Program-made: the position numbers and the translations under genes | Shown: positions 7,297 to 52,675 of the stretch, in pieces | How the letters are laid out: each line of letters begins with the position of its first letter | How positions within the stretch are numbered: the first letter of the stretch is position 1 | From: Effrenium voratum | Lineage: Eukaryota > Sar > Dinophyceae > Suessiales > Symbiodiniaceae | Direction: 5' to 3' | Assembly (NCBI GenBank): GCA_963377175.1 | Contig: CAUJNA010000451.1 | Span: 123,501-187,500, forward strand | Length of the DNA stretch: 64,000 bases | The notes under the pieces: model-generated | What the model was told of the DNA's origin: nothing | Databases searched by the model: none | The model's input: only the letters and a program-made list of their open reading frames with translations

Positions 7297-7500
7297 GGAA
7301 GCAGTGTTTGAAGCCAATGTAGTTTCCGAACCAGAGTAGTTTCCGAGCCATGGTTTCCGAATAAAGGTAGCTTCCGAAACGAGACCGCGTGGTGGTGGAA
7401 GCAACACGAGTTTCCGCAACAGTAGTTGAACCATTTCTTCGATCCGGCTTGGCTTCCAAAACGATGAATGTCCAAACCATGGTTTCCGAGCCAAGTCTCC
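7297..7500. repeat. TTTCCGAGCCATGG degenerate tandem repeat
   Basis: Multiple partial copies of (G)TTTCCGAACC/GAGCCATGG. This tract runs into the 5' end of the amidoligase open frame, so the first ~10-15 codons of that frame are probably intronic. Confidence 0.6.
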
Positions 7501-9510
7501 GGGCAGGCAGTGTCGGCGGAGGCTTGTGACTGGGGCCGCTTGTGGACGGCAACGGCGGATGGGTCCATCCAGCCAGAGGGGAAGAACCCCTTCCCGGTGG
7601 AGTTGGTGTCCAAGCGCATGGGCTTCCAGGACTTTGACGTGAACCTCTTCTGCGACCTCACGGCCGCGTTGCGCCAGGCGCCCCTGCGGGCCGCCACCAA
7701 TGAGTCCACGGGCCTGCACGTGCACGTGGGCCGGTATCCGGGCTTCTTTTCGGTGGAGGAGCTGGGGGCGATACTCAAGGCGTACTTGCGCTTCGAGCCC
7801 GCCATCAACGCGCTGCTGCTGCCGGTGACCAGGCAGCGGAACCGCTTCTGCCGCGACTTCCGGGAGGTCTTGGGCCGCGCGCAGGGCCTGGGCCCCGCTG
7901 CCTCGGATGCGGCGCTCTTTGAGGTCATCGACCGCGCGGTGGCCATGGTGAAGAACCTGAGCCCCGAGGTGCGCGCGGCTTGCGTTGAGGGCTGCCGGGT
8001 GACTGTGACCAAGGGCGACTTGATGTTGGCGCTGCTGGGGGAGGCGGGGCTGTGGCGCCTGAAGCGACCTCTGCAGGCCACGTGTGAGGGCCGCCAGCTG
8101 CTGCTGCCCGCAGGCACCACGTTGACGGAGCTGGCCGCCAGAGGCCGCCGCCTCTGGTGGCCGCCCACCTGCAAAGACCTGCAAGCCCTGTGGGGAGAGG
8201 ACGGGGACGCCTCTCCGCTGAACGCCAGCGAAGTGCCGACGCCCTGGACGGCCATGGAGGCTTTGGATGACCAGGATCTGGTGCAGTGCGTCTTTCAAAA
8301 ACCGGAGGAGGTGCCGGAGGCCAGCGTGGATCACTGGCTACTGAGGGATGCCCTGATCATGGAGCGGCACGGCGCAAGGTATTGCAAGCTGAACATCATG
8401 CGAATTGCGCAGGCTAGCGAACGTGCGACCATCGAATTCCGGCAGTTTCCCGGCGGCGACTTCAATCAGCCTTTGCTCATCTGGGGTTGGGTGAAGTTTC
8501 TGGGGCTTTTGGTGACTCACGCCTGCGCCTGCATGGGAGGCGTCACAGGAGCTGAGCTTCCGAAAGAGGCGTCTGCAGAGGAGCTGAAGCGGTTTCTGCA
8601 GCTGTCCACAGACAGCTTGCTGCTGGCCTGGTTCAGAGACCTGCGCAATCGTCTGCCCAAGCCGGAAGTCGCCCTGGCCAGCATGCGGAGCAACTGGGAG
8701 CGCCTCTGGTCCCAGTGGGCCCAGCAGGCGGAGCAGATCACAGAGGCGGACGTGATCAGCTTACAGGCAGGGCGCTTGACCGCCGCAGGCCGGCGCTGGC
8801 GCCAGATCTTCCAAGCGGCCTCGGGCATGAAGGCCATCTTCAACGCCTCGGACCCCGTGTGGGAGCCGCTGAGCTCTCGCCGGGCCACCTGCGAGGCCTT
8901 CATGCAGCACTTGTACCGGGCCATCTTGGTGCGCTTCGAGCGCCACGTGAAGCTGCTGAGCGCCGCGGAGGAGATCTCCCGTCGCTGCTCGCTGGCGACG
9001 CTGGTCAGCGCCTGCGTCTTGGACCGCCGGCTCCGCCGCAGCGGCGCGGAGCTCCGGGAGCTCCAGGCCACGGTGGCCGAGACCCTGGGCTGGGAGGCCT
9101 GCGACCCGCAGCTGGGGGCCGCCATCGCGGAGAAGGGCCGCCGCGGCGCCGAGCTCACCGTGGACTACGCCCGGAACTTGTTGGACCACTGCGAGAAAGC
9201 CGCCCAAAGCTTCGCCCACGTTGGCCATGGCGCTTCGGGCCCTGGCGAGACCCAGGAGTTGGAACGAGCGCGCACTGCGCGGGCCTGGGCATCCCCGGCA
9301 CTCGTGTGGCGGACCTACTACGAGCTTTGCGAGCTGCTCGTGCCACGTGTGGATGAGGCGGTGCACGTGTGGACCGCTCTGGCGCAGCGGGGCTGGGACA
9401 CGGAGAGGGTTAACTCTCTTTGGCCCCGCGTTTGGAGCTGCGGACAGGCGGCGGCGTTTTCCCTGGCTGCGGCATGGTTTGCGAGTGCCAAGGAAAAGAT
9501 TCGGTTCTGA
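7468..9510 (+). CDS. Putative amidoligase (PF12224-like), large terminal exon
   Basis: A 680-codon open frame, very GC-rich, ending in TGA. Three blocks fit the putative amidoligase family, a GCS-like branch of carboxylate-amine ligases. Near residues 25-40 is W...T.DGSI followed by PVELVSKRM, matching the family pattern DGSI...ELVS. At residues 82-87 is GLHVHV, the family's His-x-His signature. At residues 304-325 is RYCKLN followed by TIEFRQFPGG, where the Glu-Phe-Arg (E323-R325) is the conserved acidic strand. The remaining ~340 residues are a helical extension of unknown role. By family such enzymes form peptide-like amide bonds with ATP; the substrates here are unknown. The N-terminus is incomplete because the first codons lie in repeat sequence, and an upstream exon near 6.5 kb is likely. 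Shadow frames overlap on both strands. Confidence 0.7.
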   Translation: MSKPWFPSQVSGQAVSAEACDWGRLWTATADGSIQPEGKNPFPVELVSKRMGFQDFDVNLFCDLTAALRQAPLRAATNESTGLHVHVGRYPGFFSVEELGAILKAYLRFEPAINALLLPVTRQRNRFCRDFREVLGRAQGLGPAASDAALFEVIDRAVAMVKNLSPEVRAACVEGCRVTVTKGDLMLALLGEAGLWRLKRPLQATCEGRQLLLPAGTTLTELAARGRRLWWPPTCKDLQALWGEDGDASPLNASEVPTPWTAMEALDDQDLVQCVFQKPEEVPEASVDHWLLRDALIMERHGARYCKLNIMRIAQASERATIEFRQFPGGDFNQPLLIWGWVKFLGLLVTHACACMGGVTGAELPKEASAEELKRFLQLSTDSLLLAWFRDLRNRLPKPEVALASMRSNWERLWSQWAQQAEQITEADVISLQAGRLTAAGRRWRQIFQAASGMKAIFNASDPVWEPLSSRRATCEAFMQHLYRAILVRFERHVKLLSAAEEISRRCSLATLVSACVLDRRLRRSGAELRELQATVAETLGWEACDPQLGAAIAEKGRRGAELTVDYARNLLDHCEKAAQSFAHVGHGASGPGETQELERARTARAWASPALVWRTYYELCELLVPRVDEAVHVWTALAQRGWDTERVNSLWPRVWSCGQAAAFSLAAAWFASAKEKIRF

Positions 9511-30175: not shown

Positions 30176-31337
30176 ATGTCAATGGATGTCAATGGTTGAT
30201 GGATTTCAATGCTTGGAATTCCGTCAATGGACACATTTCCAACAAAGGAATCCCCAAATTGGTGGCTTTTCTCGTGGTGTCCGCATCCGACATAGCCAAG
30301 TGATCAAGGGTTTTGGTGGCAATTACTCAGCTGCGCTGACGGGTGCACAGCATTGCGAGGGGGTTGGAACATGGCCATTGCAGCTTCTGTCCTCGCCCCA
30401 AGCCAAGCTCAATTCGTCAGCCAGTCTTCGGAGGGCTAGGACAACTTTGCCGAACCGAAGAATCAGCGTTTGGCACAACTTGAAACCAAGGGATCCGAGT
30501 GAGGGCATGGTTTTAGGTTTGCTTCCTTGCTTTACTGACAATTTTGCTTGATTGCGCATCGGAGTGATTTGAGTCTTGCATGATTTCCAGATTATTCTAT
30601 GCGAGCTGATTGAGAGACATGGGCTCTGAAGCCTTCCACACACATATGTTGAAGCAGGCATGAAATAGCATGAGCCGGAGCAACCATTACACTTGTTCAG
30701 GATTTGAAACTGCTTTCTGTATGACGGGTTGTGGCAGACGCAGCGGAGTAGACTGTGATCCATCACTCTCTTTACAGCAAGGCCAGCCACATCATTCCAT
30801 CATTTGAGGGTCAATGTTGTGCATTGCAAGTCCATCTCTTTCAGAAATGTATTGTTTGCTTCAACCTCAAATCCAAGATCTTAACTCTGTCCATTACGGA
30901 TTCGAAGATGCTTGGGCGGTTCATGTTGCTGGTTTTAATCTCAGGCCCAGTCTCAGGTACTGAGTCGGGCGAGGATTTCACACTGTCGAAGGCTGGCGCT
31001 TTGATGCCGGAGCCAATGGCATGCCTTGCTCGCGAACGTGCGAAAGATCTTTCCGGGTTGGGATTCAATTTCCTCATGTGACTCATATGTTTCTTGCCTT
31101 TGTCGCACTACTTGGCATGTCTTGATTTCTTGCATGTAATTTGCATGCAACAAAGGGCTTTTTTGTCCACGCCGCCAGATTGCCGCAGGCGGTTCAGAGC
31201 GCGATACGGGGCGTGCCTGGCGGCCGAGCAGTGCGACACTGCGAGTGTAGATGTGGCAATGCGGGTGTCACAATGGCGCAGTTTTGGGACTCTCAAAGAG
31301 TTCCGGTCGAAAACATACATTTTGTCAACATGTGTGT

Positions 31338-31679
31338 GTGTGTGTGCGGAGTGACAGAATGCCCTGTCACCACCCTTTCGGTTTCGCAGCAGGGGGCACA
31401 GGCCCATGGTGGTGACCTGTGCCAACGAAGCTAACCACCATGGGGGAAACGCGGACTGATCATCCGCGTGTACCTGCTTTTGTGAAGTGATGTTGCTGAA
31501 GGTCCTTTTGGTCCCCTCCCTGAACCGCCGTTGCTTTGTGTGCCCCTGTTCAAGTAACTAGAGTGAAGCTGAGTGATGTGCGAGTCGAAGCTCACCATAC
31601 TCGAGACTCATCAGTTGTACTCGAAACTCATCAGTTGTACTCGAAAGATTAGCACTCTCCATCTGGAGTTCAAGTGTGT
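31338..31679 (+). repeat. Left terminal direct repeat (LTR-like) of the retroelement
   Basis: 342 bp, matching 43149-43492 with one substitution noticed plus a short changed patch that adds 2 bp to the right copy. It starts in a (TG)n run and ends AAGTGTGT. Several perfect stems are visible: GTGACAG/CTGTCAC at 31351-31370; GGCACAGG/CCTGTGCC at 31395-31423 interleaved with CCCATGGTGGT/ACCACCATGGG at 31403-31444 (pseudoknot order); and CGCGGA/TCCGCG at 31450-31468. A 20-bp direct tandem repeat (core ACTCATCAGTTGTACTCGA) lies at 31601-31640. It probably carries the promoter and processing signals of the element. Confidence 0.9.
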
Positions 31680-31711
31680 ACACCCCATTCGTGGGGAATC
31701 CTCGGGTGTAC
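31678..31711. promoter_or_regulatory. Inverted repeat just inside the left terminal repeat
   Basis: GTACACCC (31678-31685) and GGGTGTAC (31704-31711) are perfect inverted repeats, with a nested CCCC/GGGG stem (31683-31686/31693-31696). It could be an RNA hairpin or protein-binding site in the element leader. The role is inferred. Confidence 0.45.
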
Positions 31712-32075
31712 CCATTGTGTGACCCCGGGCCGGCTCTGTCGGAAAATTTGACCTCAACGTGCTTATCATAGAACAGCGGAATTTCACATTTAATCAGGAA
31801 CGAGGTTTCACTAAAGGGAAGAAAGCCGTCAGTTCATAGAGACGTCTCACCACAGCGGATAGCTGCCGATTTTCATTGCATTTCTTGACCATTGGTTGAA
31901 CTCGTTGCTCGTATCACTGCGGTTGGTGATTGCTGACTTGTATTTGCTTCCCTTGTGCATGTCGAGTGACCATTGCAGTTGAGGGCTGCTAACTTGCATT
32001 TGCATTGATTTGAACGTTTTCAAGTCTGAGTATCTCAAGGAGGAAGTGCGCAAATTCAGAGTCGGTTGCGTCACC

Positions 32076-33542
32076 ATGTCTCGACGGGATGATCGTGATA
32101 GATCCAGGACTCGACGCAGACGTGATCGGAGTCCGTCCCCTCAAGCTCACAAAGCACGCCGACGTGAGCACAATGACAACCAGGTCGCGGAGAACATGGA
32201 TTGGAACAACTTGGTCTCATGGCAGCACAACTCCGGCTACAACGCTGCTAACAACTTTCCGATGATGCCCACCAATTTTCAATCGACTCACAACCCCACA
32301 CAACAATTCCAATACCCGGCGATCAACTACATGATGCCGATCCCTCCTGATCCCACGCCATCCAAGTTCATGCCACCAGTGATGCCACCACCGGTCACTA
32401 CTTCCCAACCTACACCATCACCTGCACCTCCTGCGGCTCTACCGGTTCGTCCTCAGAAAGCCTGGCTTACTCCATCGCCTGACTGGACACCAGGAGACGG
32501 CATGTTTGATGTCAACCAGCTCTACAACTTCAGCCTGCCCATGACTGTTGCCAACACTCCGCATGGCAACCTTCGCGACATGTCCGGCATGGATATTAGA
32601 GACGTTCGCCTGGTTCAGGTTATCCACGGGGGCCTCACCAACTGGCTCCTCCGGCCGTTTGCACACGGCCGCTTCGTGACGTGGGAAGGCTTTCGCACCC
32701 GCACCGAGGCCTTGCTTTGGAGTACCTGCTCCAAATTACTGCGAAGATCGCAGTCACTTAACCTGCTCACCCTGGAGAAGGACCTTGCCAACACGATGGG
32801 TCTCAACATTGATGACTTCAATCAGCGCATCAAGGTCCACGACCATTTGGCCAACTTGGTACTTCAATTTCTTCAACAACATCACACCTCTCTCGCACCC
32901 GCTGCCCAGACCGATGACATTGTCAAAAAGTTCAATGATTTGAATCGTGCTCACGAACTTCTCCAGGCTCAGTATTCCGCATCACTTCGTGCATCGACTT
33001 CTCCCACGATGACAAACCAGAAGGATGATGCAGAGTTGGTTACACCACCACCGGTCAACCACACACCATCCTCGTCACCTGCCAGCTCCCTTCCCACAGC
33101 CAGCGCGGCCGCCCTGGATGGCAAGTCGTTTGATAGCGTGGTGCAACCTCGGATCATGCAGTCTCTTCACGGAATGTCGTCACCGCCGTCCAAACCGGCG
33201 GCGTCACAATTGCTCACCATGCACAGCACGCCGGAGGAAGTTGTCAAGTACTACACATGGACCAGCGACCAACCACGCCTTTTCCTCAAGCAAGCACCCA
33301 CAACAACCACTTTGGCATCGCTGGTTAAGTGGGCCAATCACCCGTCCCGGCTCAACGGCAACAAGTCATTAGATTCTATGGCGACGCAACTTCTTCAGGC
33401 GAAGCAACGCATGCCGAAAGGCGATGCCCCCACTCTCGGGGCAATGGCGGCTTCATGGGGATTGGAGCCCGGCTATCTTACCAAACTCACTGAGAAGGCA
33501 TTGAGTCACCTCATCGTGACCGCTCGCCTGCTCTGTGGATGA
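32076..33542 (+). CDS. Element ORF1: Arg/Ser-rich, Pro-rich, putative RNA-binding protein
   Basis: 488 codons from the ATG at 32076; an in-frame ATG at 32010 is possible, but an AG at 32023-32024 would remove it from a trans-spliced message. Residues 1-35 are strongly basic with SRRDD and RTRRRRDRSPSP, like SR proteins. Residues ~90-145 are Pro-rich. Residues ~150-300 and ~390-488 are two folded, mostly helical segments (for example DVRLVQVIHGGLTNWLLRPF and STPEEVVKYYTWTSDQPRLF). No CCHC knuckle or known gag domain is visible. By position, as the first frame after the left repeat, and by its basic N-terminus, I infer an ORF1/Gag-like nucleic-acid-binding protein. The domain is unfamiliar. Confidence 0.65.
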   Translation: MSRRDDRDRSRTRRRRDRSPSPQAHKARRREHNDNQVAENMDWNNLVSWQHNSGYNAANNFPMMPTNFQSTHNPTQQFQYPAINYMMPIPPDPTPSKFMPPVMPPPVTTSQPTPSPAPPAALPVRPQKAWLTPSPDWTPGDGMFDVNQLYNFSLPMTVANTPHGNLRDMSGMDIRDVRLVQVIHGGLTNWLLRPFAHGRFVTWEGFRTRTEALLWSTCSKLLRRSQSLNLLTLEKDLANTMGLNIDDFNQRIKVHDHLANLVLQFLQQHHTSLAPAAQTDDIVKKFNDLNRAHELLQAQYSASLRASTSPTMTNQKDDAELVTPPPVNHTPSSSPASSLPTASAAALDGKSFDSVVQPRIMQSLHGMSSPPSKPAASQLLTMHSTPEEVVKYYTWTSDQPRLFLKQAPTTTTLASLVKWANHPSRLNGNKSLDSMATQLLQAKQRMPKGDAPTLGAMAASWGLEPGYLTKLTEKALSHLIVTARLLCG

Positions 33543-33696
33543 GAAAGCATCATGATGCTCTTCGTTCTCATATGAGCCCGGAGCGGCAACATCACGGATG
33601 AGTCCAGGTGAAAACTCGTCCGTCATGTGTCTGCGTTGCGCCTGATTGATCTTGTACTTGCTTGTTCTTGCATTGCTTCTTGTGTGATTGGCTGAG

Positions 33697-35106
33697 ATGC
33701 TTGTATTCATGTCGCCGCCTTGTGGTAGATTTCGTTGGTTGCATCTCATCATGTTGGATGAACTTCGTCACTGCGGAATCTATGATGATGTAGCACAATG
33801 GCAGTCGCTGGACGACCTTCTGCACTCGTTGACCATATTCTCTACGTGCTGGCATTACTGTTTTCCTGGACTACCACCACCGTCGATTCCAATTGAGGAG
33901 CACGAATCCATCACACAATTACCGTGGCTGGGTCTCATCCTCGAGGTCTTAGTTGTGGTCCGGATAGCCCTTCAGATTCCGAATCGTGCTATGTCCAGCT
34001 CTAATCACACCGTGGCTAACAGATATGAGCTTCACAGATGTCGGTGCGCAGCCTATTTATTGATCAGTTTCTTACAACGTCTTATTTCACAAGATCACGG
34101 CTACTTCCCGCCGTTCTTTGAAGTCCTCCACTTCTACAAGACTTCTCTCTTGTGTGAAATCATGCACTCGACTTTCGCTGACACGCGACATCTACGCTCA
34201 TTGCGGGCGCGATTTCCTGACCTCTATGACTTCATATATGATCCAGGTCATCACCAACAACCGTGCGTCTACATTCGCCTTTCCCCATGGCACACACCAT
34301 ACTATGTTGGGGCGACTGATCAGGATGTGCTACGTCGTGAACACTCACGCAGTCGCAAATTTCTACAACTGCTTCGTGGACGACATGCCTTCTTTGAACC
34401 GGCGCTTCACTACTGGAAACGATCCAACACCTACTGGCTCTACTGTGCTGTACCAGTGGAAATCAAACTTCCAGTTTCCTCGGTGTGGGTCCAAGAAAGC
34501 AAATGGCAATACCTGCTACGCCCGCATTTAAATGCGCCCTGGGTACACAGAATCTTGCGCAAGGTGGGCTTCCGGGAACACCTTGTAGACTTTCGACGCC
34601 ACTCGTTGTCATCCCCCACTTCCCTCGGCTTGCACAAGCGCTTTCGACGACGACTGCATCCGGATCTCCAACGACAACTACGACCTGACGCACTGGATGA
34701 CATTCAAGCCCACTACTCGATTCTCTATCAGCTGGGATCGAATACAGGAGCGTCGTTCCAAGTCATGCGTGACCTACTGTCGGCCGCCTTCCCTCCCACT
34801 CAGCTGTACTACTTATTGCGGCTCGCAGTTTTCGTCAACGAACCCTTCCCAGAAGCTCCTCGCCCAGGTACTGCGCAAACGACGGCTACAACCACCCTCC
34901 ACTTTGACACAGCTATTTCTGCCGCCGCTACATGTCCAAAATTGGAAAGCTCTACTTGGCACATGGTTACAAAGCTGGATTGCTTCCCATCGGGATCTGT
35001 TCCCTTCTCTTTTCATTCCAAAGATCCGGGTTGTGGAAACCCGCAGCGCCACATTGGGCGACAAGATATACAACTATCGCACATGGCAGCGCAAATGGAC
35101 GCCTGA
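33697..35106 (+). CDS. Element ORF2a: GIY-YIG endonuclease frame
   Basis: 469 codons from the ATG at 33697; an alternative in-frame ATG lies at 33751. Residue numbers are from 33697. The GIY-YIG motif is V191-Y192-I193 ... Y203-V204-G205, followed by R213/R214-E-H-S-R218, supplying the catalytic Arg, and E267 in QESKWQYLLRPHLNAPW, the metal-binding Glu that normally precedes the L-x-P-x-x-N strand. The N-terminal ~185 residues are helical and unfamiliar. GIY-YIG nucleases nick target DNA in Penelope-like elements. Here the domain lies before the polymerase, the permuted arrangement. Coding character is lost after ~34860, where the reverse-transcriptase frame (+1 relative) takes over, so ORF2a and ORF2b are probably one protein split by a frameshift. 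Confidence 0.8.
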   Translation: MLVFMSPPCGRFRWLHLIMLDELRHCGIYDDVAQWQSLDDLLHSLTIFSTCWHYCFPGLPPPSIPIEEHESITQLPWLGLILEVLVVVRIALQIPNRAMSSSNHTVANRYELHRCRCAAYLLISFLQRLISQDHGYFPPFFEVLHFYKTSLLCEIMHSTFADTRHLRSLRARFPDLYDFIYDPGHHQQPCVYIRLSPWHTPYYVGATDQDVLRREHSRSRKFLQLLRGRHAFFEPALHYWKRSNTYWLYCAVPVEIKLPVSSVWVQESKWQYLLRPHLNAPWVHRILRKVGFREHLVDFRRHSLSSPTSLGLHKRFRRRLHPDLQRQLRPDALDDIQAHYSILYQLGSNTGASFQVMRDLLSAAFPPTQLYYLLRLAVFVNEPFPEAPRPGTAQTTATTTLHFDTAISAAATCPKLESSTWHMVTKLDCFPSGSVPFSFHSKDPGCGNPQRHIGRQDIQLSHMAAQMDA

Positions 35107-37084
35107 CACATCCTTTCCGTGTCGCTGTTTGGACATCGATGATCACCATCTACTCCGTGCACATGGTCACGCAGTAATGGTGGATGACTTTTCTCGCATC
35201 AATGCGGACATTAACGTGGAAATCATGGCCGCCTCAATGAAGGATCAGTTTTTCGGTGATGTCGACTTATTGCATCAACGTTTCACCACGCAACTTCGCA
35301 AACTTGCTCGACGCTGGCATGTACATGGTTCCGATCTACTTTCAGATCTACAACCGGTCGTGGCTCAGTTAATGGAGACCCATCGGATCAACCTCCAAGA
35401 TCGGGCTTATTGGTCATCGACATCGTTGCAACGCACTGTGGCCTCTTTGTCTTCATGGGTAGTTATACCAGCGGATCATTTTCCCTCCCGTGCACATGTA
35501 GTGTGCCCGTCCCTGTTTGCCATACTGATGCGGAAGACATTCTGCGCGGGGGATGTTTTCTCACTTTGCCGCGAATCCGCAGCATCGTTTCGCTCTGAAG
35601 TGGTAACCACGGTACCTTCTCTCCTACGTCAACGATACGCATGGGGACTTCGACTTCAAGCACCGTTGCCCACAGCGCGCATCCTTCCAAAGCCGACCAA
35701 GGACTGGCAGAAAGCTCGACCCATCATTTCATTCTTTCGCACATGGGCAGCTCCCTTCCTCACGGTCTTCGGTGCGCTCATATTTGAACTCACCAAGGCG
35801 GCTTTCCCCGACATTGCAGGTCAACTCCCGGTACAAGAACTTATCCAGCAGCTGTGGGAAGCACTGTCAAAAGCAGATCCTGATGAGTACATCCACCTGG
35901 TGTCGCAAGACTTGTCAGGCTTCTTCACGTCCATTCCTACGGAACGATTCCATCAGGCGCTTCAAGTGCTTCTCCATCGATATGATCAAGTTGTTGGCCT
36001 TCGCAGTTCCTCGCAATGGTCCGTGTACGAAGTCAAGTCAGATCATCGACGCCGTATGTTCAAAGGAAAGTGGCGCCGTCAAACCAAGATCCCTCGAATC
36101 TTTCGTGAACAAGATCTCCGGCACCTCCTCGACTTTGTCATTGACAACAGTCACTTCGAGATCAACGGATACTTGTTCCGCCAAGAACGAGGAGTCGCTA
36201 TGGGATCACCAGCCGCGCCACCGTTGTGCAATTTGGTTGCTACGGTTGAGGATTTCTTTTGGCACCAAACCATGATTTCTCTGCGGTTTTGCATGCCCGA
36301 CATTGGTGTAATTTGGCATGAGCGCTACGTCGACAATCGTTTCATTCTCCTTCGTGACTCGGCCCCACACTCACCCGTGCTCATGAACTTTCTTTCCCTG
36401 GAATTTTATCGCCCACCAGTGATGCTTGAAGTTCAACATGACGACAAAGTGCTGGGTTACCGATGTGATTCTTCCTCCAGAACTATTACTCCGCAGCTAC
36501 CTGATCATCCCTCCCAAATCAAAGGAATTCGGAGTGCCAATGATCGGATGTTCACTTATTCTTCTTGGTCTTCTCGCTCATGGCTCATCATACGTGGTGC
36601 ACAACCGGCGGTTCAACAACAACATGGGCTCGACGCTCTCAAACGCCTTTATGAGGCCAAAGGTTTCGAATCTCACCTTCTGCGGGATGTTCGCCGTAGA
36701 CTTGGGACAAAATCCGCATGTGTGCTTGTCATTCTGTCCCTTCTTATGCATGCTTGGGACTGCCACTTTGCTTGCGTGTTGTTGCATTGCGCTTTGTTTG
36801 CATGTAGCTGGCTCAGAACCATGGCGGAATATATGGTCACTAGCCTTCTGCGTTCTGACGGTTCAGTACAAACCACGAGCCGCGTGACACTCGAGCACCT
36901 CCCCAACTTCATCAACGGCAATGAGATCCAAATGTTCATTCGGACTCACGGCATAGCGCACCAGCAAAGTGTGCAATCCCACGGCTCGTCACGTGACGTG
37001 CCAGCGCTCACTGGGCAGTCCCGATCGCGTTCACCTCGGTCACGAATTCCAGCTTACACCGGGCCCGCAAGGGCACTCGGATGA
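34697..37084 (+). CDS. Element ORF2b: Penelope-type reverse transcriptase frame
   Basis: Frame open for 795 codons. Protein-like sequence begins near 34860, where it picks up from the GIY-YIG frame. Residue numbers are from 34697. Fingers: ILPKPTKDWQKARPIIS (~335-351). Motif A: SQDLSGFFTSIP with D405. Motif B: GVAMGSPAAPPLCNL starting G499. Motif C: ERYVDN with D546 and N547. The thumb-like region LDALKRLYEAKGF (~654-666) fits the Penelope pattern. The AMGSP motif and the D-x-x-x-x-(F/Y)-T-x-IP pattern separate it from LINE and LTR polymerases. The second Asp of YVDD is replaced by Asn. From ~36720 the frame reads through a T-rich spacer with an AG at 36807, so the genuine polymerase probably ends near 36.7 kb. 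A second start (ATG 36821) then opens the same frame to 37084, where the next protein appears in the +1 frame. Confidence 0.85.
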   Translation: MTFKPTTRFSISWDRIQERRSKSCVTYCRPPSLPLSCTTYCGSQFSSTNPSQKLLAQVLRKRRLQPPSTLTQLFLPPLHVQNWKALLGTWLQSWIASHRDLFPSLFIPKIRVVETRSATLGDKIYNYRTWQRKWTPDTSFPCRCLDIDDHHLLRAHGHAVMVDDFSRINADINVEIMAASMKDQFFGDVDLLHQRFTTQLRKLARRWHVHGSDLLSDLQPVVAQLMETHRINLQDRAYWSSTSLQRTVASLSSWVVIPADHFPSRAHVVCPSLFAILMRKTFCAGDVFSLCRESAASFRSEVVTTVPSLLRQRYAWGLRLQAPLPTARILPKPTKDWQKARPIISFFRTWAAPFLTVFGALIFELTKAAFPDIAGQLPVQELIQQLWEALSKADPDEYIHLVSQDLSGFFTSIPTERFHQALQVLLHRYDQVVGLRSSSQWSVYEVKSDHRRRMFKGKWRRQTKIPRIFREQDLRHLLDFVIDNSHFEINGYLFRQERGVAMGSPAAPPLCNLVATVEDFFWHQTMISLRFCMPDIGVIWHERYVDNRFILLRDSAPHSPVLMNFLSLEFYRPPVMLEVQHDDKVLGYRCDSSSRTITPQLPDHPSQIKGIRSANDRMFTYSSWSSRSWLIIRGAQPAVQQQHGLDALKRLYEAKGFESHLLRDVRRRLGTKSACVLVILSLLMHAWDCHFACVLLHCALFACSWLRTMAEYMVTSLLRSDGSVQTTSRVTLEHLPNFINGNEIQMFIRTHGIAHQQSVQSHGSSRDVPALTGQSRSRSPRSRIPAYTGPARALG

Positions 37085-38150
37085 GGAAGAGGATTGGGGT
37101 GAATGGAGGATTGATGGCAGACGCGCTCATAGTGATCAAAGGAGACCACGCTCGCCTCCGTTTCCTCCTGCTCGTGGCAGTCCTTCTGAGAACCGCATCG
37201 CGCTGGTGCCTCTCTCAGTTCGTCGGCAGGTACCTGACTTGGGGGTTCATCGCTTCAAGCTACGCACTGGGTGCCGGATTGAGGAGATCGCCATCGAAGT
37301 AAACGATGTCCTCTACTACACCTTGCCGTCGATTGCCGCCTTGGAATTTCCTGAGCCGGAGCTGTTGAAGAAATCTTGGGAGTCGGTCTACAGGAGCCTC
37401 ATGCCGCACCGCCGCAGCATCATCGAAGATGAACAGAGGGTCAAGTCAATTTCAGAGTTTCCGTTTGCTCAGCCACCACATGGAGTTCCGGGACGCTGGA
37501 CGGAGCAAGTGCTCAAAGACATTTCGGACTACTTCCAGATCTCGCGGCGCTCACTACCTCAGCAACTCATCGTCCAGCTCGGCATTTGCGAGGAGAAGTG
37601 GCCATATATCAGCAGAACCACGCGGACCTTTCACCACTTCTCCGCGGACAAAAAGAACTCGCAGAAGAACCTCTTTGGTATCATCTTCTCATTTGAGCCA
37701 CGCCGATTGTTGCCCGACAAGCAACGGACTCAATCGCAGTCCACCTTTTTCTGGTCCCACAACACCAACGTACAGGCTGCCATGCAAATCCTGCGTGATG
37801 AGGAACTGATCCGACCTTCGAAGTGGCAAGAACACCCTTCCCCCAATCGTGAGTGCTCCAACTGGAACGAAGTCTGGTTGCCGCCGATGGGATTCTACTG
37901 CAGAGGCAGCCTCCAGTCTCAAGAAGCGGCAATCCAATCAGCTGCGCAGTTCGGTGGAATCCGGACGGACCGCCCGGTGTGCATTGGTGGCTCTGCTCGT
38001 CTCCGACAACAGCATTGCACTATACCCCGCGGCGGCGTGTACGCGGACATAGCAGCCTCCCACTACTATGACTGCATTCATGCCAAGGATGGCAGGTGGA
38101 AACTAAGATCTTCGATCGCAGTGCCCAGCTACATGGGCATCTTCTGGTGA
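36969..38150 (+). CDS. Element ORF3: ~390-aa accessory protein, unknown
   Basis: The open frame starts at a GTG and overlaps the end of ORF2b by 116 bp in the +1 frame. The natural start may be the ATG at 36821, 14 bp after an AG acceptor, entering this frame by a +1 shift near 37040-37080, because the frame has no ATG before its conserved part. The N-terminal ~70 residues are acidic then Arg/Pro/Ser-rich. The middle (~75-230) is helical with RTGCRIEEIAIEVNDVLYYT. The C-terminal part contains FFWSHNTNVQAAMQILRDEE followed by GFYCRGS and a Gly/Arg strand region. This faintly resembles the H-x-T...IL...G start of ADP-ribosyltransferase-like or Tpt1-like folds, but the resemblance is too weak for a call. 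Confidence 0.55.
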   Translation: MCNPTARHVTCQRSLGSPDRVHLGHEFQLTPGPQGHSDEEEDWGEWRIDGRRAHSDQRRPRSPPFPPARGSPSENRIALVPLSVRRQVPDLGVHRFKLRTGCRIEEIAIEVNDVLYYTLPSIAALEFPEPELLKKSWESVYRSLMPHRRSIIEDEQRVKSISEFPFAQPPHGVPGRWTEQVLKDISDYFQISRRSLPQQLIVQLGICEEKWPYISRTTRTFHHFSADKKNSQKNLFGIIFSFEPRRLLPDKQRTQSQSTFFWSHNTNVQAAMQILRDEELIRPSKWQEHPSPNRECSNWNEVWLPPMGFYCRGSLQSQEAAIQSAAQFGGIRTDRPVCIGGSARLRQQHCTIPRGGVYADIAASHYYDCIHAKDGRWKLRSSIAVPSYMGIFW

Positions 38151-38409
38151 ACCATGGTGGCTTGCCAGTACAAGATCGTTGCTACTGACCCGATGTGGTG
38201 AGTGCTATGTTTGTTTTTCATGATGTACATCATGACGCTCCTCTTCCGGAAAAACGCATTGTGTTGTCCGCGGCTCATGGTTGTCTTTGATGGTTCCTTT
38301 TATGGTCTTGCTTGCATGATTGGTTGTGTGCCTTCTGTTGCTTGCCGTCGCCGCTTTCAGTCATCTCTGGTGGATTTGACCCTGGTTGTCTCGTCTTTCC
38401 GGGATTGTG

Positions 38410-38913
38410 ATGGATCATGGAGATCTGCTACGCGATTGTCGACACATGCTACTCGCTATGTCATCGCAGATCAGTTTACTTCTGGCGGGACTCCAGCGTC
38501 TTGAGGGACAGCAGCGACATCCACAGCCGCCCCCACCACCACCGATTCCGGAAGTTCATCCCCCGCCGCTGCCGCCGCCGTCCACGGCGCCTCCGCACTT
38601 GCCAGCAACATCGGTCAGACCTGACCACATGGCAACGCCGGTCACTCTCGTGGCCACCACGGATAGCCGTGCGGAGCACCCTGCTCACGCACGCACGGTG
38701 AGTGTCAGCACTTCCTGGGAACACAGGCGACGGCGAAGATCTAGGCATCGAGAGCCGCACCGAAGACGATCCCGCAGCCATCATCGACGGCTCCCAGACC
38801 GTCCTGTTGATGCAGTTCCTGTGGTCCGCCGTCATTCTTATACTCCTAAGTATCCACCGGCAGTTAAAGCCATGCCAGCTTGCAGACCGTCTGGTCTGCC
38901 CTATGAACGATGA
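38410..38913 (+). CDS. Element ORF4: helix plus Pro/Arg/Ser-rich disordered protein
   Basis: 167 codons from the ATG at 38410, 50 bp after a CCGCTTTCAG acceptor. Residues ~1-37 form an amphipathic helix (DCRHMLLAMSSQISLLLAGL). A Pro-rich segment with poly-Pro runs follows, then a basic tail with RRRRRSRHREPHRRRSRSHH. The same plan, a short coiled helix and then disorder, recurs in the next frame. The basic tail suggests nucleic-acid binding or nuclear targeting. No enzyme motif. Confidence 0.5.
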   Translation: MDHGDLLRDCRHMLLAMSSQISLLLAGLQRLEGQQRHPQPPPPPPIPEVHPPPLPPPSTAPPHLPATSVRPDHMATPVTLVATTDSRAEHPAHARTVSVSTSWEHRRRRRSRHREPHRRRSRSHHRRLPDRPVDAVPVVRRHSYTPKYPPAVKAMPACRPSGLPYER

Positions 38914-39043
38914 CGGAGCAACCGCGACAAAAGTACGTCAGCGTTTGCTACATTCATGCTTGCATTTACCTTATCTCTGTCATGCCGCAGCATTATCGCT
39001 TTGCAGCTTTGCTTGAGTTGACCTTGTGGTTTGATCGGTTGCC

Positions 39044-39772
39044 ATGCAGTTGTCAGCTGAGTTTGTGAATAACCTGGTGGCTGTGCTCAATGTCCTTGCA
39101 TCCCAAGTGGCGACAGCTTTGGACACCCTGAACTTTGCCTTGATGACGGAGCGTGGTCGTCCGACTGACACGGTGGTGACCCCAAGAGCACCACGAAACT
39201 CCAGACATGGGTTGCGGCCCCGCATCATCACGGAGCACCCCTCATCTGACAGATCTCGATCCCCCACACATATTCGAATTCGACCGCTGGACACGTCATC
39301 TACCTGGTACATACCGGCTTTGTCCCCGCCTCGAGCGACACATCGTGATGCCAGTGACCACAATCCGGGAGCTCGGCCCGAATCGATGTTGGATCGACTA
39401 CCACCTCCTCGTCCCCTTGCTCCTTTCGCGACACGCGGTGGACGAGAGCCAGGACAAACGACGCCTACGACACCTGATTCGGATTCTGATGGTTCGATAC
39501 GTCCGCATCCAGGTGCCTCGTCGTTCCGGCCGTCGCCGACGGTGGTCCATGGTCCTCGAGAACTTCTACAAGAATTTACCATTGCACTTCGAAATGCGTA
39601 CCGTGAACCTTTCACGGCACGGACACAGGGTGAGCTGGATGAAATGGTGAGACGGAAGAAGGATAAAGATTCCAGGCCCACCTATAAGACCATTGCGCGG
39701 TTTCTTCAGAAGCCGATTGAGGAAGTCAAGCAGGCATGGAAGGTCTATCAACAACTTGAAGCTCGCGGCTAG
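39044..39772 (+). CDS. Element ORF5: helix, disordered linker, basic helical C-terminus
   Basis: 242 codons. The N-terminal ~34 residues are a hydrophobic heptad-like helix (NNLVAVLNVLASQVATALDT), probably for oligomerisation. Residues ~45-170 are Arg/Ser/Pro/Thr-rich and likely disordered. Residues ~172-242 form a charged helical domain with ELLQEFTIALRNAY and ELDEMVRRKKDKDSRPTYKT. It lies 54 bp after a CATGCCGCAG acceptor. No family recognised. Its plan parallels ORF4, and the two may be diverged relatives or partners. Confidence 0.55.
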   Translation: MQLSAEFVNNLVAVLNVLASQVATALDTLNFALMTERGRPTDTVVTPRAPRNSRHGLRPRIITEHPSSDRSRSPTHIRIRPLDTSSTWYIPALSPPRATHRDASDHNPGARPESMLDRLPPPRPLAPFATRGGREPGQTTPTTPDSDSDGSIRPHPGASSFRPSPTVVHGPRELLQEFTIALRNAYREPFTARTQGELDEMVRRKKDKDSRPTYKTIARFLQKPIEEVKQAWKVYQQLEARG

Positions 39773-39952
39773 CAACATGCCCGACAAATGCAGCAACGAC
39801 CATTGATGGACCAAATGATAAGCAGCGGCGGTGTGTCCGATTCGAGTTGTTGATCACATGATATTTGCTTGCTCGCATGTGACTCACTCTTGCTTGTCGT
39901 GTTGTGAGATGTCGTTGACATGCAGTGATGTCTTGCCTGAGTTGCTCAAATC

Positions 39953-40522
39953 ATGTCGGAACAAGTTGTACAGACGTACATTACCTGGACCCATGGAGCG
40001 CAGCCGACGTGGTTACAATTTCATGGACCCGGGGCTCTACTCGACAGACCCATTCGGCTGACTACGTCACCTCCGCCCCCGCCAAGTTTGCCATTGCTTC
40101 TTCCACCTCCTCCTCCACCACCACCACCACCACCGGTGATTCTTCACCCACAGTTTATGCCCTCGGTACGCAGCCCCTCGATCTCAGCCCCTCGCGGACA
40201 ATCCTGCCCTACCTCTTCGAAATCGCAGCGCACACGCCGCTCGATCCACAGCAGTGACCCCTCCCGTGATGAAGAACCACGCAGTCCAGGGCGCTCGTCC
40301 AAACGATCTCGGACAGCATCAGCTTCAGCGCCGCGGCGATCTCGACGGCCCTTTACAGTGTTTTATTCCAAACGTGCTGGCCGTCCATCGCAATCCCCCT
40401 CGGCGGCGTGCAAGCATTACTGTCACGCCATCCTGCGCCATGGACGGAAATGTCTTTCCCCTTGTGCTCGTAGACGGCCAGGTCACTATCATTGCAGGTG
40501 TGCGCGACATCAACGACAGTGA
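39953..40522 (+). CDS. Element ORF6: Pro-rich protein with C-terminal Cys/His zinc-like cluster
   Basis: 189 codons from the ATG at 39953, 28 bp after a GACATGCAG acceptor. A poly-Pro segment lies at ~residues 40-62 and an Arg/Ser-rich segment at ~85-130. The C-terminal ~37 residues contain CKHYCHAILRHGRKC, then LSPCARRRPGHYHC and RCARH, with spacing C-x3-C-x9-C-x3-C-x9-C-x-C-x2-H. The C-x-A...G-x-x-C...C-x-x-H pattern resembles small zinc-binding motifs seen in mobile-element proteins. I infer nucleic-acid binding. An overlapping shorter frame (40254-40529) lacks comparable features and is taken as a shadow. Confidence 0.5.
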   Translation: MSEQVVQTYITWTHGAQPTWLQFHGPGALLDRPIRLTTSPPPPPSLPLLLPPPPPPPPPPPVILHPQFMPSVRSPSISAPRGQSCPTSSKSQRTRRSIHSSDPSRDEEPRSPGRSSKRSRTASASAPRRSRRPFTVFYSKRAGRPSQSPSAACKHYCHAILRHGRKCLSPCARRRPGHYHCRCARHQRQ

Positions 40523-40681
40523 AAGATAGGAGTCTGACATTTCCGACCTCGTTGCTGCGTTTCACCTTGTGTTTGAAAAGTTGCCTCACTCTTCAGCGTA
40601 TATGTGCGGTTGGCAATGCATGTGTTTCCTTGCCGCAGACCTTCGATTGGTTCAACAGTCGTGCAAGCCCGTATTGCTGCT

Positions 40682-41104
40682 ATGAACCCCCAGTATTTCG
40701 AGTACCAGATCGATAGAGGAGTTGAATGGATTCGAATTTACTCTCCGGGCATTTGGAGGCCCGTTCCCGATGAGGCGCCTGTTCCTGACCCACTGTACGC
40801 TTCCACGTATCGGGAGTGGCGCAGATCATATCACTTCCAAGTGTACTGGTCTGAAGACAGCACCGGTGGAACCACAATGGATCCTATAGCCACGCCCAGT
40901 TCCTATGTGTCCTACCACGTGTGGGAGTACCGAGACTGGCAAACACGAGGTTACCAACGACTTGGACCTCCTGTACAATCCATCGGATTCGCGATGCTCG
41001 TCAATGCAGACGTCGAGTCCTCGGTGGGCTCGTCGGTACCGGATGGGGCGTGGCGGGAACCGTCACCGCCGCCATTCCATGATCCTTGGAATGAGTCGGA
41101 TTGA
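40682..41104 (+). CDS. Element ORF7: WIRIY-REWR-RDW family protein, paralog 1
   Basis: 140 codons from the ATG at 40682, 44 bp after a CCTTGCCGCAG acceptor; codons upstream of that ATG lie in the spacer. Core motifs: EWIRIYSPG (~residues 15-23), STYREWRR (~41-48), HFQVYWSEDSTGGTT (~51-65) and YRDWQTRGYQRLG (~82-94). The C-terminal ~45 residues are acidic, Ser/Pro-rich and variable. The Trp/Tyr/Arg-rich core suggests one compact beta domain of ~95 residues. No known family is recognised. It is the first of four consecutive paralogs and closest to ORF8. Confidence 0.7.
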   Translation: MNPQYFEYQIDRGVEWIRIYSPGIWRPVPDEAPVPDPLYASTYREWRRSYHFQVYWSEDSTGGTTMDPIATPSSYVSYHVWEYRDWQTRGYQRLGPPVQSIGFAMLVNADVESSVGSSVPDGAWREPSPPPFHDPWNESD

Positions 41105-41249
41105 CTCTTGAGTAGCATGTTGGACAAAGATGCGGTTGTGCTTGCTTTGTATGTGTGCTCACATTGGGTTGTCTTGCTTGGTGCTGTGCATGTCGTTTCA
41201 GTGTGTCCGCCGCTTTCCGTGTTAACTTTGAGCAGCTTGTTGGGTTGAA

Positions 41250-41693
41250 ATGTTCAATAGTACAGTGCAGGGTGCAGCACGATGGGTCCTACCTCGTTAT
41301 TTTGACTATGACATCGTTAATGGTCGAGCAGGAACGAGTGTGGAATGGATTCGAATCTATGTTCCGGGTCAGTGGCATCCAGTAGCCCCAGACACCCTGG
41401 GACCGGCCCCGGATGACTCGACCACCTATCGGGAATGGCGCAAGGTCCACCACTTCGAAGTGTACTGGCCCAGGGAAAGCACGGGCGGCACAACCACAGG
41501 CACGGTTCTGCAACCGGTATCTTACGCCACCTTCTACACTTGGTATTACAGGGACTGGGTCACCAGGGGGTATCAACGCCTGGGTCGTCCACATCCTAGC
41601 ATAGCGAGGCCAGTTTTCGCTTCGGGTGCACCGGACCTCATGTATGCTGGAATGACTTCCTCCTCGGCATCATCTAATTCGCTTGATAGCTGA
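41250..41693 (+). CDS. Element ORF8: WIRIY-REWR-RDW family protein, paralog 2
   Basis: 147 codons, 49 bp after a GTCGTTTCAG acceptor. Core motifs: EWIRIYVPGQW, TTYREWRK, HFEVYWPRESTGGTT and YYRDWVTRGYQRLGRP. It shares with ORF7 a ~15-residue HF.VYW...STGGTT insert absent from ORF9 and ORF10, so these two are the most recent duplicates. The tail is short and Ser-rich. Confidence 0.7.
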   Translation: MFNSTVQGAARWVLPRYFDYDIVNGRAGTSVEWIRIYVPGQWHPVAPDTLGPAPDDSTTYREWRKVHHFEVYWPRESTGGTTTGTVLQPVSYATFYTWYYRDWVTRGYQRLGRPHPSIARPVFASGAPDLMYAGMTSSSASSNSLDS

Positions 41694-41848
41694 TGCCCGT
41701 CCTCGCCTCCCTGGAGAGTCAGACTATGATGCTGGCGACGCACAGTGTTACAAAAGTGGTCTTTTGCATTATGATTGTTGACTTGCTTGCACTTGTTGTT
41801 GTCTGCAGCCGTACACCTATCAACTTGTCTTTCCGTGGTTGTGTTGTC

Positions 41849-42430
41849 ATGGCGTGGCTGGAATGGTGTCCGGACCCTCAACAACCAGATGCCCAGTGGG
41901 TCAAGATCTTTCATCCGGGACCGTGGGCGCCGCAAGAAGAACATGATGATCCACCTCCTCCGCATACTTTTAGAGAATGGAGGGAGTTCTATGCACCCAA
42001 CCAGGCCTCAGTCGGAGAGCAGGCCCAAGTCACTATGTGGTACAAACGAGACTGGGCCACAGAGGGCTATCGGAGAATCGCTGCCCCTCACGCTGGTCAT
42101 GAATTTGATTCAGGGTATCCCTCCGATCATCACAGTGTGGCCACGCAGTCTGCGGCATTGAGTATGTCGCCAGAACTGTTAGACGCGATTCTCAGGTCCT
42201 CAGATGCAGCTGATTTCTCTACTGAAGAACTGACTCGTCTCCAGGAAGGGATTTCTCAACAACTGACAGCTCGCGCACGCCTAGCTTCCCATCCTCATCA
42301 ACCAGTACGTGCGTCGCGTGGAAGCACATCATTGGAGACGATTGGGGTCTCCGACCCCTACCGGCCCGTTAATCCTTCCGACAGTGGCCGAGACAAGATG
42401 AGTCCCGTCTTCGAGCTCACTGAAGACTAG
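41849..42430 (+). CDS. Element ORF9: WIRIY-REWR-RDW family protein, paralog 3
   Basis: 193 codons from the ATG at 41849, 41 bp after TTGTCTGCAG; the frame is open upstream to 41693, but that part is spacer. Core motifs: QWVKIFHPGPW, HTFREWREFY and MWYKRDWATEGYRRIAAP. The C-terminal ~110 residues differ from the other paralogs. They include a helical stretch (SPELLDAILRSSDAADFSTE, then LQEGISQQLTARA) that might be an interaction domain. Confidence 0.65.
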   Translation: MAWLEWCPDPQQPDAQWVKIFHPGPWAPQEEHDDPPPPHTFREWREFYAPNQASVGEQAQVTMWYKRDWATEGYRRIAAPHAGHEFDSGYPSDHHSVATQSAALSMSPELLDAILRSSDAADFSTEELTRLQEGISQQLTARARLASHPHQPVRASRGSTSLETIGVSDPYRPVNPSDSGRDKMSPVFELTED

Positions 42431-42580
42431 ACTCGCATGAGCAGCGCAGCGTACAAAATAAGGGTGGTCTTTACACTTGCATGATCTTGCTTGGCTGTTG
42501 GTTGAACATGGTTGTGCATTGTGCTTGTTCATCTACTAGCCGGATCGGAGCCCGCGACAATTCTTGCCTCTTGCCTCGAC

Positions 42581-43081
42581 ATGGACATCGATGATTCGAA
42601 GCAGCACCCATGGCTTGAATATTCAGTCTGGCATGATCAGGAGTGGGTGCGGATATACACTCCAGGACATCCTCAACGATGGCACCGCGGGGACGCCTTG
42701 CCTGATGTCCCTGAAAATTCGTTTCGTGAATGGAGGCGGGTGACTGAGCCCGATGCGCCAGTCCAAGCATGGGACATCCGTGACTGGCAACACCAAGGGT
42801 ACCAGCGCATCTTGTCTCGGATTGAGTCCTTCACGACTCGCGATCCACATGATCAGGCGCTTGGTCGAGTTCGAAACTCCGATGCCGTTCCAGTTGAGGA
42901 GACATTCACCTATGCCACTCCGTTTTCTCAAGGTGATCGCCCGGCTGCTTCGCAAATCGCTTCAGTCCTCTATGGCGACACTCGCAATGCTCAACGTGGT
43001 GATCTTTCGTTCCCGTCTTCTGAGCGGTTCAGGGCGGTGTCTCGCTCCCCTCGCCGTGGAGGATTTTTTGGTCAACGATAG
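42581..43081 (+). CDS. Element ORF10: WIRIY-REWR-RDW family protein, paralog 4
   Basis: 166 codons from the ATG at 42581, 42 bp after a TCTACTAG acceptor. Core motifs: EWVRIYTPGH, NSFREWRRV and WDIRDWQHQGYQRI. The tail is different and ends in a basic SRSPRRGGFFGQR stretch. It is the last frame before the right terminal repeat, which starts 68 bp further on. Confidence 0.65.
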   Translation: MDIDDSKQHPWLEYSVWHDQEWVRIYTPGHPQRWHRGDALPDVPENSFREWRRVTEPDAPVQAWDIRDWQHQGYQRILSRIESFTTRDPHDQALGRVRNSDAVPVEETFTYATPFSQGDRPAASQIASVLYGDTRNAQRGDLSFPSSERFRAVSRSPRRGGFFGQR

Positions 43082-43130
43082 AGAATTGAGTGTGAGCATT
43101 TGATCTTCCTGCAGGAGAAAAGAGAAACTT

Positions 43131-43149
43131 CGCCCCTCGTAGAGGGGCG
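43131..43149. terminator. Perfect 8-bp hairpin abutting the right terminal repeat
   Basis: CGCCCCTC-GTA-GAGGGGCG, ending exactly at the first base of the right direct repeat. It could mark an RNA 3'-processing or integration boundary. The label terminator is a guess at its role. Confidence 0.4.
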
Positions 43150-43492
43150 TGTGTGTGCGGAGTGACAGAATGCCCTGTCACCACCCTTTCGGTTTCGCAG
43201 CAGGGGGCACAGGCCCATGGTGGTGACCTGTGCCAACGAAGCTAACCACCATGGGGGAAACGCGGACTGATCATCCGCGTGCTGGACTGCTTTTGTGAAG
43301 TGATGTTTCTGAAGGTCCTTTTGGTCCCCTCCCTGAACCGCCGTTGCTTTGTGTGCCCCTGTTCAAGTAACTAGAGTGAAGCTGAGTGATGTGCGAGTCG
43401 AAGCTCACCATACTCGAGACTCATCAGTTGTACTCGAAACTCATCAGTTGTACTCGAAAGATTAGCACTCTCCATCTGGAGTTCAAGTGTGT
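43149..43492 (+). repeat. Right terminal direct repeat (LTR-like) of the retroelement
   Basis: 344 bp, nearly identical to 31338-31679. The differences I see are the patch CGTGCTGGACTGC versus CGTGTACCTGC and one T/G change nearby (GATGTTTCTG versus GATGTTGCTG). All stems of the left copy are retained. It is followed by GTCGGTG, so the right end is also within a short (GT)n tract. Confidence 0.9.
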
Positions 43493-51584: not shown

Positions 51585-51674
<90 letters not shown>

Positions 51675-51767
51675 GAAGAAAGGAAGGAACGGAAGGAAGG
51701 AAGGAAGGAAGGAAGGAAAGGAAGGAAGGAAGGAAGGAAGAAGGAAAGAAAGAAAGAAGAGAAAATA

Positions 51768-51806
<39 letters not shown>

Positions 51807-52454
51807 AAATAAAGAAAGAAAGAAAGAAAGGAAGGAAACGGAAGGAAGGAAGGAAGGAAGGAAGGAAGGAAGAAAGAAAGAAAGAAGAGAAAAGAAAGCA
51901 AGCAAGCAAGCAAGAAAGAAAGAAAGACAGAAAGACAGAAAGAAAGAAAGAAAGAAAGGAAGGAAAGGAAGGAAGGAAGGAAAGGAAGGAAGGAAGGAAG
52001 GAAGGAAGGAAGAAAGAAAGAAAGAAGAGAAATTAAAGCAAGCGCAAGCAAGCAAGCAAGAAAGAAGAAAGAAAGAAGGAAAGAAGGAGGAAGGAGGAAG
52101 GAGGAAGGAAGGAAGGAAGGAAGGAAGGAAGGAAGGAAGGAAGGAAGGAAGGAAGAAAGGAAGGAAGGAAGGAAGGAAGGAAGGAAGGAAGGAAGGAAGG
52201 AAGGACATAAAGAAAGAAAGAAAGAAGAGAAAAGAAACCAAGCAAGCAAGCAAGAAAGAAAGAAAGGAAGGAAAGAAATAAAGGAACGGAAGGAAGGAAG
52301 GAAGGAAGGAAGGAAGGAAGGAAGGAAGGAAGGAAGGAAGGAAATAAAGAAAGAAAGCAAGCAAGCAAGCAAGCAAGAAAGAAAGAAAGAAAGAAAGGAA
52401 GGAAAGAAAGGAAGGAAGGAAGGAAAGAAGGAAAGAAAGAAAGAAGAGAAAAGA

Positions 52455-52533
<79 letters not shown>

Positions 52534-52675
52534 AAAGAAAGAAAGAAAGAAAGAAAGAAGAGAAAGAAGAGAAAGAAGAGAAAAGAAAGCAAGCAAGCAA
52601 GCAAGAAAGAAAACAATAAAGAAAGGAAGGAAGGAAGGAAAGAAAGAAAGAAAGAAAGAAAGAGAGAAAGAAATA
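51559..52675. repeat. 1.1-kb purine tetranucleotide array (AAAG/AAGG/AAGC)
   Basis: Blocks of (AGAA)n, (AGGA)n and (AGCA)n alternate in a recurring order (AAAG, AAGG, AGAAGAGAAA, AAGC, then AAAG again) about six to seven times, giving a higher-order period of ~90-180 bp. One strand is almost purely purine. It opens long spurious Lys/Glu/Arg and Phe/Leu/Ser frames. Confidence 0.95.

Follow-up and report, generated by a model that had tools for sequence, protein, structure and literature searches.

Positions 31338-43492 of a 64,000-nt stretch of DNA from Effrenium voratum (GenBank assembly GCA_963377175.1, contig CAUJNA010000451.1, positions 123,501 to 187,500 of the forward strand; hereafter "the window") hold a giant retroelement of ~12 kb, which carries ten genes on the + strand between direct repeats. 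We are confident, if short of certain, that this is a multi-copy retroelement, most likely a Penelope-like element of the kind with an N-terminal nuclease, that it bears ten conserved genes and resides in GT microsatellites, and that its insertion probably proceeds by target-primed reverse transcription. A preliminary description, made from the letters of the window, had proposed a dinoflagellate Penelope-like element of giant size with about ten genes; the copies, their gene order, and a count of spliced-leader sequences all support this, and the element is multi-copy.

It is best to begin with the copies. The end repeat, used to scan the assembly that contains the window (3699 contigs, 1.156 Gb), gave 43 matches; since 40 of 1479 first-look candidates were scored, the copy number is a lower bound. 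A same-strand pair of repeats was found on 16 contigs (our labels for these begin with C), the window's among them, and 13 of the pairs are ~8.5-14 kb apart. We compared 11 copies, namely that of the window and ten fetched whole; a short pair on C589 was added later, and the paired-repeat contigs C680, C3625, C3692, and C355 were left out of the comparison. All ten fetched copies align along the whole element and share its outer boundaries. Six are ~97-98% identical to the window copy, three are 82-90% identical by block, and C129, which is shorter, reaches 72-77% over the long blocks that lie within the repeats.

Gene order and direct repeats are constant across the compared copies, and at least one copy has every frame open. 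The window copy itself is damaged: two genes (G2 and G3) are split by frame changes, at places where five of the ten fetched copies are open. The preliminary description had suggested looking for full-length copies with the same gene order and repeats, and these exist; neither the lone copy nor the one-off capture of host genes by a separate element, which it had named as alternatives, was borne out. Some copies are rearranged. On C125 (loci L011-L012) an internal duplication of approximately G4-G6 gives a 14.5 kb copy, and on C3558:31000-33000 (L042) the leader is followed by pieces of G2 out of order. Repeat pairs 32 and 29 kb apart (C3692:331167-363686 and C355:215187-244605) are perhaps nested insertions.

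As to the host, the 21-nt spliced leader of dinoflagellates occurs exactly at 251 places in the assembly, while a reversed control occurs at none, so the host is a dinoflagellate. An array of spliced-leader copies at C722:109307-122977 is perhaps a cluster of spliced-leader RNA genes.

The 5' direct repeat (31338-31679, + strand, 342 bp) starts GTGTGTGTG and ends AAGTGTGT; the 3' repeat (43149-43492, + strand) has 344 bp. The two lie 11.8 kb apart and agree at 338 of 342 aligned bases, with a 2-base gap in addition, so that the direct repeats first described as enclosing the genes, all in frames on the + strand, are confirmed. Repeat termini are fixed among copies. Paired repeats occur in 11/11 copies, which were selected for having them, giving the structure of pseudo-long terminal repeats (pseudo-LTRs), and in 9/11 the two repeats of one copy differ by 0-5 mismatches. 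Directly before the 3' repeat is a hairpin (43132-43148, + strand; GCCCCTC-GTA-GAGGGGC). Its general form, GCCCCTC-NNN-GAGGGGC, stands ahead of every 3' repeat seen but one (16 of 17), and in that one (C1057) it is cut short.

Similarly, the 5' repeat is followed by a conserved, non-coding leader of 171 nt (31680-31850, + strand), a candidate cis-acting RNA signal. It shows 3-7 differences of 171 from seven copies, 0/126 from C2976 (in which part of it is missing), and 23/170 from C129; this near-invariance stands beside synonymous divergence (dS) of 0.25-1.1 in the genes of C440, C1057, and C2955. A scan with the leader, in which 40 of 803 candidates were scored, gave identities of at least 98% throughout. 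Eight of these loci were fetched as 2-3-kb pieces, in which the 5' ends were read: each is the 5' end of a giant element in a GT tract, with seven continuing into G1 and one rearranged. On C589:142700-145600 (L031; oriented positions 546-2394) there is a 1.85-kb non-autonomous element with both repeats, leader, and hairpin, and an interior of ~1 kb of unrelated pyrimidine-rich DNA. Because this short copy keeps only these parts, repeats, leader, and hairpin are likely the cis signals, and it points to the minimal set of them.

The choice of target is equally regular. In the window, the 5' junction is a GT microsatellite (31332-31346) made up of the target and the first GTs of the element. All 24 distinct 5' junctions lie in GT tracts; at 22 the GT run exceeds the 9 nt that the element itself contributes (the length at 15 of 16 internal repeats), and at two the tract is interrupted. 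At the 3' end, where 6 nt of GT belong to the element, the run is longer at 15 of 17 junctions, at one of these by just 1 nt. The full copy on C440 has its start in the GT tail belonging to the 3' repeat of another element.

G2 (33697-36715, + strand) encodes ~1010 amino acids (aa), comprising a predicted GIY-YIG nuclease, a CxC linker, and a reverse transcriptase (RT). In the window copy its frame changes near 34850, and the end of the gene was set by the loss of coding selection. Among 15 family members, and at a loose cut-off, the RT models PF00078 and TIGR04416 matched 11 (best E 4.5e-5) and 12 (best E 2.4e-6), respectively; against solved structures the RT profile found a group II maturase (E 0.017) and another RT (E 1.7). 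The predicted nuclease sits N-terminal to the RT, and its GIY-YIG-type positions Y, YxG, R, E, and N are invariant in 12/12 members. The top two of its three matches to solved structures, each weak, are SLX1 (E 0.03) and I-TevI (E 0.075), both GIY-YIG enzymes, and the GIY_YIG_2 model matched 3/12 members (best E 0.07, weak by itself). Between the two domains, both cysteines of the CxC pair are invariant in 15/15.

The repeats could be read in another way. If they were true LTRs made by strand transfer, the element would be an LTR- or DIRS-type retrotransposon, and a near-fixed repeat length at both ends (344 bp at the 3' end of the window copy), near identity in most copies, and repeats that in several copies are each other's nearest neighbours would fit. 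We consider this quite improbable, however. A Pfam scan of ten window frames (G10 fell outside it) together with G2 found no integrase, tyrosine recombinase, protease, or RNase H; none of the eight unpaired repeats is a solo repeat, each being one end of an element; the termini are without TG...CA and the junctions are GT tracts; and the RT is fused to a GIY-YIG-like domain and CxC linker.

G1 (32076-33542; like all ten on the + strand) encodes 488 aa, rich in RS and proline. G3 (36821-38150; ~445 aa, no known family) has a frame change near 37050 in the window copy. G4 (38410-38913; 167 aa) and G6 (39953-40522; 189 aa) are proline/arginine-rich, again with no known family, and between them G5 (39044-39772; 242 aa) has a C-terminal segment that resembles the Myb/SANT-like tails found in relatives. 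Compared one at a time, these gave E of 3.5e-8 to 4e-5, and one of them bears the Pfam Myb label PF13921. G7 (40682-41104; 140 aa), G8 (41250-41693; 147 aa), G9 (41849-42430; 193 aa), and G10 (42581-43081; 166 aa) are a family of four paralogues with 15 invariant columns among 16 sequences. The earlier figure of about ten genes stands in its total; the separate GIY-YIG and RT frames counted in it proved to be one gene, split by a frame change.

All ten genes are under purifying selection. The ratio of nonsynonymous to synonymous divergence (dN/dS) is 0.05-0.25 for each of them in every computable comparison with three or four divergent copies (C440, C1057, and C2955 for all ten genes, C129 for eight, as G7 was not aligned there and dS for G8 was undefined), and out-of-frame readings give values mostly above 1. 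The same analysis places the gene boundaries. The G2-G3 region is a single open frame of 1466-1518 codons in five of the ten fetched copies; the GIY-RT part of G2 and G3 have dN/dS of 0.05-0.20 against divergent copies, while the 34-codon stretch that joins them has 0.9-2.3 in the three copies covering it, and is therefore a spacer that lacks stops by chance. The open frame ahead of G9, at 41693-41848, is likewise spacer, its first 52 codons having dN/dS of 1.0-2.3 in four copies. In all, nine spacers of 105-259 nt, with 29-39% T, part the ten genes.

A layout of many genes, several small conserved proteins without known family, and a four-member paralogue family would also suit an endogenised dinoflagellate virus with a Penelope-type RT, in which G1 or G7-G10 served as particle proteins. 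This is very improbable in our estimation, as a retroelement better accounts for paired repeats that are nearly identical and for GT tracts at 24 5' junctions, and one scan of viral contigs confirmed no relative.

A search with the G2 protein gave 101 matches among 7669 candidates: 16 close (70-97% identity), one (P0017) at 32%, and the rest at 23-32%. In an RT tree, under midpoint rooting only and with long branches flagged, five rows from the giant element grouped together with P0017 adjoining, each at 100/100; the tree holds 74 of 102 rows, the 28 dropped for coverage including 12 of the 16 close matches. One distant RT, P0036, has 1803 first-look candidates in the window's genome, and the 46 scored are 31-35% identical, 44 of them without stops and most in a 968-codon open frame. 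In C202:15119-17557, C122, and C857, the open frames around distant RT matches are longer than this usual length (4280, 2543, and 2517 codons).

Two relatives were read out, on C3325 (L051 and L053) and C3246 (L052 and L054). They are ~7.9 kb long, with approximately four open frames and repeats of 298 and 289 bp. Like the giant, they have repeats that start GTGTGTGTG and end AAGTGTGT, insertion in GT tracts, a similar hairpin (placed three bases ahead of the 3' repeat), a G1 homologue (E 9e-9), an N-terminal GIY-RT, and a Myb-like tail. Repeat interiors gave no match to the giant's better than E 0.03, and homology to G3 is suggestive at most (E 0.07). Neither G4 nor any of G6-G10 turned up among the frames of these relatives, where no profile search was made for them. 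On contigs distinguished by their length, G3- or G7-G10-type proteins occur with 7/16 close RTs and, among the matches listed, with 0/79 distant RTs, and G7-G10-type proteins, from the best 120 of 156 matches, lie on 26/68 G3-type contigs; some of these contigs may belong to the window's own assembly. The third and least probable alternative, in which a Penelope-like element of the usual sort picked up host genes on one occasion and has carried them passively, can draw on the failure to find G4 and G6-G10 in those frames, but is contradicted by the purifying selection on every gene and by the co-occurrence of G3- and G7-G10-like proteins with close RTs and with each other.

We can now sketch how such an element might work. 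A single RNA, running repeat-leader-genes-hairpin-repeat, would be bound through its leader by the G2 protein, whose predicted GIY-YIG domain would nick a (GT/AC)n tract. The ...AAGUGUGU end of the RNA (GU) could then pair with the AC strand and prime cDNA synthesis, and GTGTGTGTG, just past the hairpin, would fix the other end by microhomology. The ten genes would be translated from separate mRNAs, probably produced when a spliced leader is added in trans at the T-rich spacers; G1 and G5 would be nucleic-acid-binding helpers, and the G7-G10 family would have an accessory function. Tentatively, and with slightly more doubt than belief, we propose that dinoflagellates possess a branch of Penelope-like elements of their own, organised as operons. 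Its core of G1, GIY-RT, and Myb-like genes would have candidate copies in the thousands, and a giant lineage would have gained six further genes, with every gene expressed from one genomic RNA as a trans-spliced mRNA of its own. If true, a retroelement would be borrowing the trans-splicing of its host to run a virus-like, multi-gene programme.

Several points weigh against our reading of the element as a functional Penelope-like retroelement with this mode of life. The giant's own G2 had no match among Pfam and NCBIfam models, and its RT and GIY-YIG identities were assigned through relatives that align over its length at 23-32% identity. The third structural match of the nuclease profile, polybromo-1 (E 0.32), is no nuclease, and the catalytic motif of the RT is YVDN, not YVDD, in 15/15 members, so that RT activity is not certain. 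The class assignment was made by domain order and features, with the RT placed in a tree free of named Penelope, Naiad, Chlamys, Athena, or TERT references. Structure models were poor, with confidence too low for claims about folds. Against C129, dS either is undefined or, at 1.1-2.8, approaches saturation, and some of the divergent copies contain isolated stop codons. The repeats within a copy are more divergent in two copies (27 and 11 mismatches), and in C129, C746, C3516, and C1057 they differ also by gaps. Two of the 17 3' junctions (C3145 and C1057) have no GT past the element; the leader folds no more stably than shuffled sequences (z +1.7); and no 5'-truncated copies were seen in searches by repeats and leader, which favour intact ends. 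In addition, spacer composition is the only basis of the trans-splicing proposal.

Elsewhere in the window, a 680-codon frame at 7468-9510 has an amidoligase-like domain (PF12224, E 1.9e-13), and long simple arrays are found at 2304-3513 (ACACAGAG) and 51585-52673 (AGAA).

According to one source (PMC6431247), Penelope-like elements were deemed compact, with a typical length of 4-6 kb and one or two open reading frames (ORFs), until terminons were described. A 2025 study (PMC12477816) states that none had been reported in telonemids, stramenopiles, alveolates, and rhizaria before its own elements from Ectocarpus. Here, a dinoflagellate holds an apparently abundant Penelope-like group within which a ten-gene form evolved, each gene under selection. 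Two questions can now be put to the test: what use a target-primed retroelement makes of many proteins, and how ten genes are expressed in a host that trans-splices its mRNAs.

What, then, is the element? On most of the features tested it is, as judged from sequence, an N-terminal-nuclease Penelope-like element, and an extreme form within a type that is already known. The Naiad/Chlamys elements, which Craig et al. are said to have described in 2021, reportedly share with it a GIY-YIG domain N-terminal to the RT, a CxC linker, pseudo-LTRs, a bias toward insertion in microsatellites, and the lack of a canonical hammerhead ribozyme. For the giant, an Rfam scan (E up to 5) found no hammerhead, its single match being a chance one and no ribozyme. 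The N-terminal position of the nuclease, first put forward as a difference from the rotifer terminon, is not new: Naiad/Chlamys reportedly have it, as do the relatives in the same genome. Differences from Naiad/Chlamys are the ten genes, the 12 kb length, YVDN, complete repeats with constant termini at either end, the six genes that were not found in either relative read out, and the dinoflagellate host.

Chlamys elements in Ectocarpus are treated in the 2025 study (PMC12477816). The terminons (Athena) of bdelloid rotifers are, like the giant, giant Penelope-like elements with several accessory ORFs (PMC6431247); that source describes them as endonuclease-deficient, attached to telomeric repeats, and equipped with a hammerhead ribozyme at the 3' end, and names exonuclease, esterase/lipase, GIY-YIG-like, Rep, and coiled-coil accessory genes. 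Compared with those, the accessory genes of the giant are different. Its fused GIY-YIG-like domain, its GT-tract sites, and the absence of a hammerhead led us to reject a terminon/Athena identity, and the rotifer terminon is not the closest match that it had been supposed to be. Poseidon of Anolis (PMC11167929) has a similar pseudo-LTR organisation, and the RNA it requires for insertion includes the first 172 nt past the pLTR-ORF junction; unlike the giant it has a C-terminal nuclease, one ORF, a hammerhead ribozyme, and AT-rich targets. To call the element an undescribed class was too strong, then, as its type is known; what is new is its ten-gene size and the six genes (G4 and G6-G10) not found in two relatives, and the dinoflagellate host group is apparently new for this type as well.

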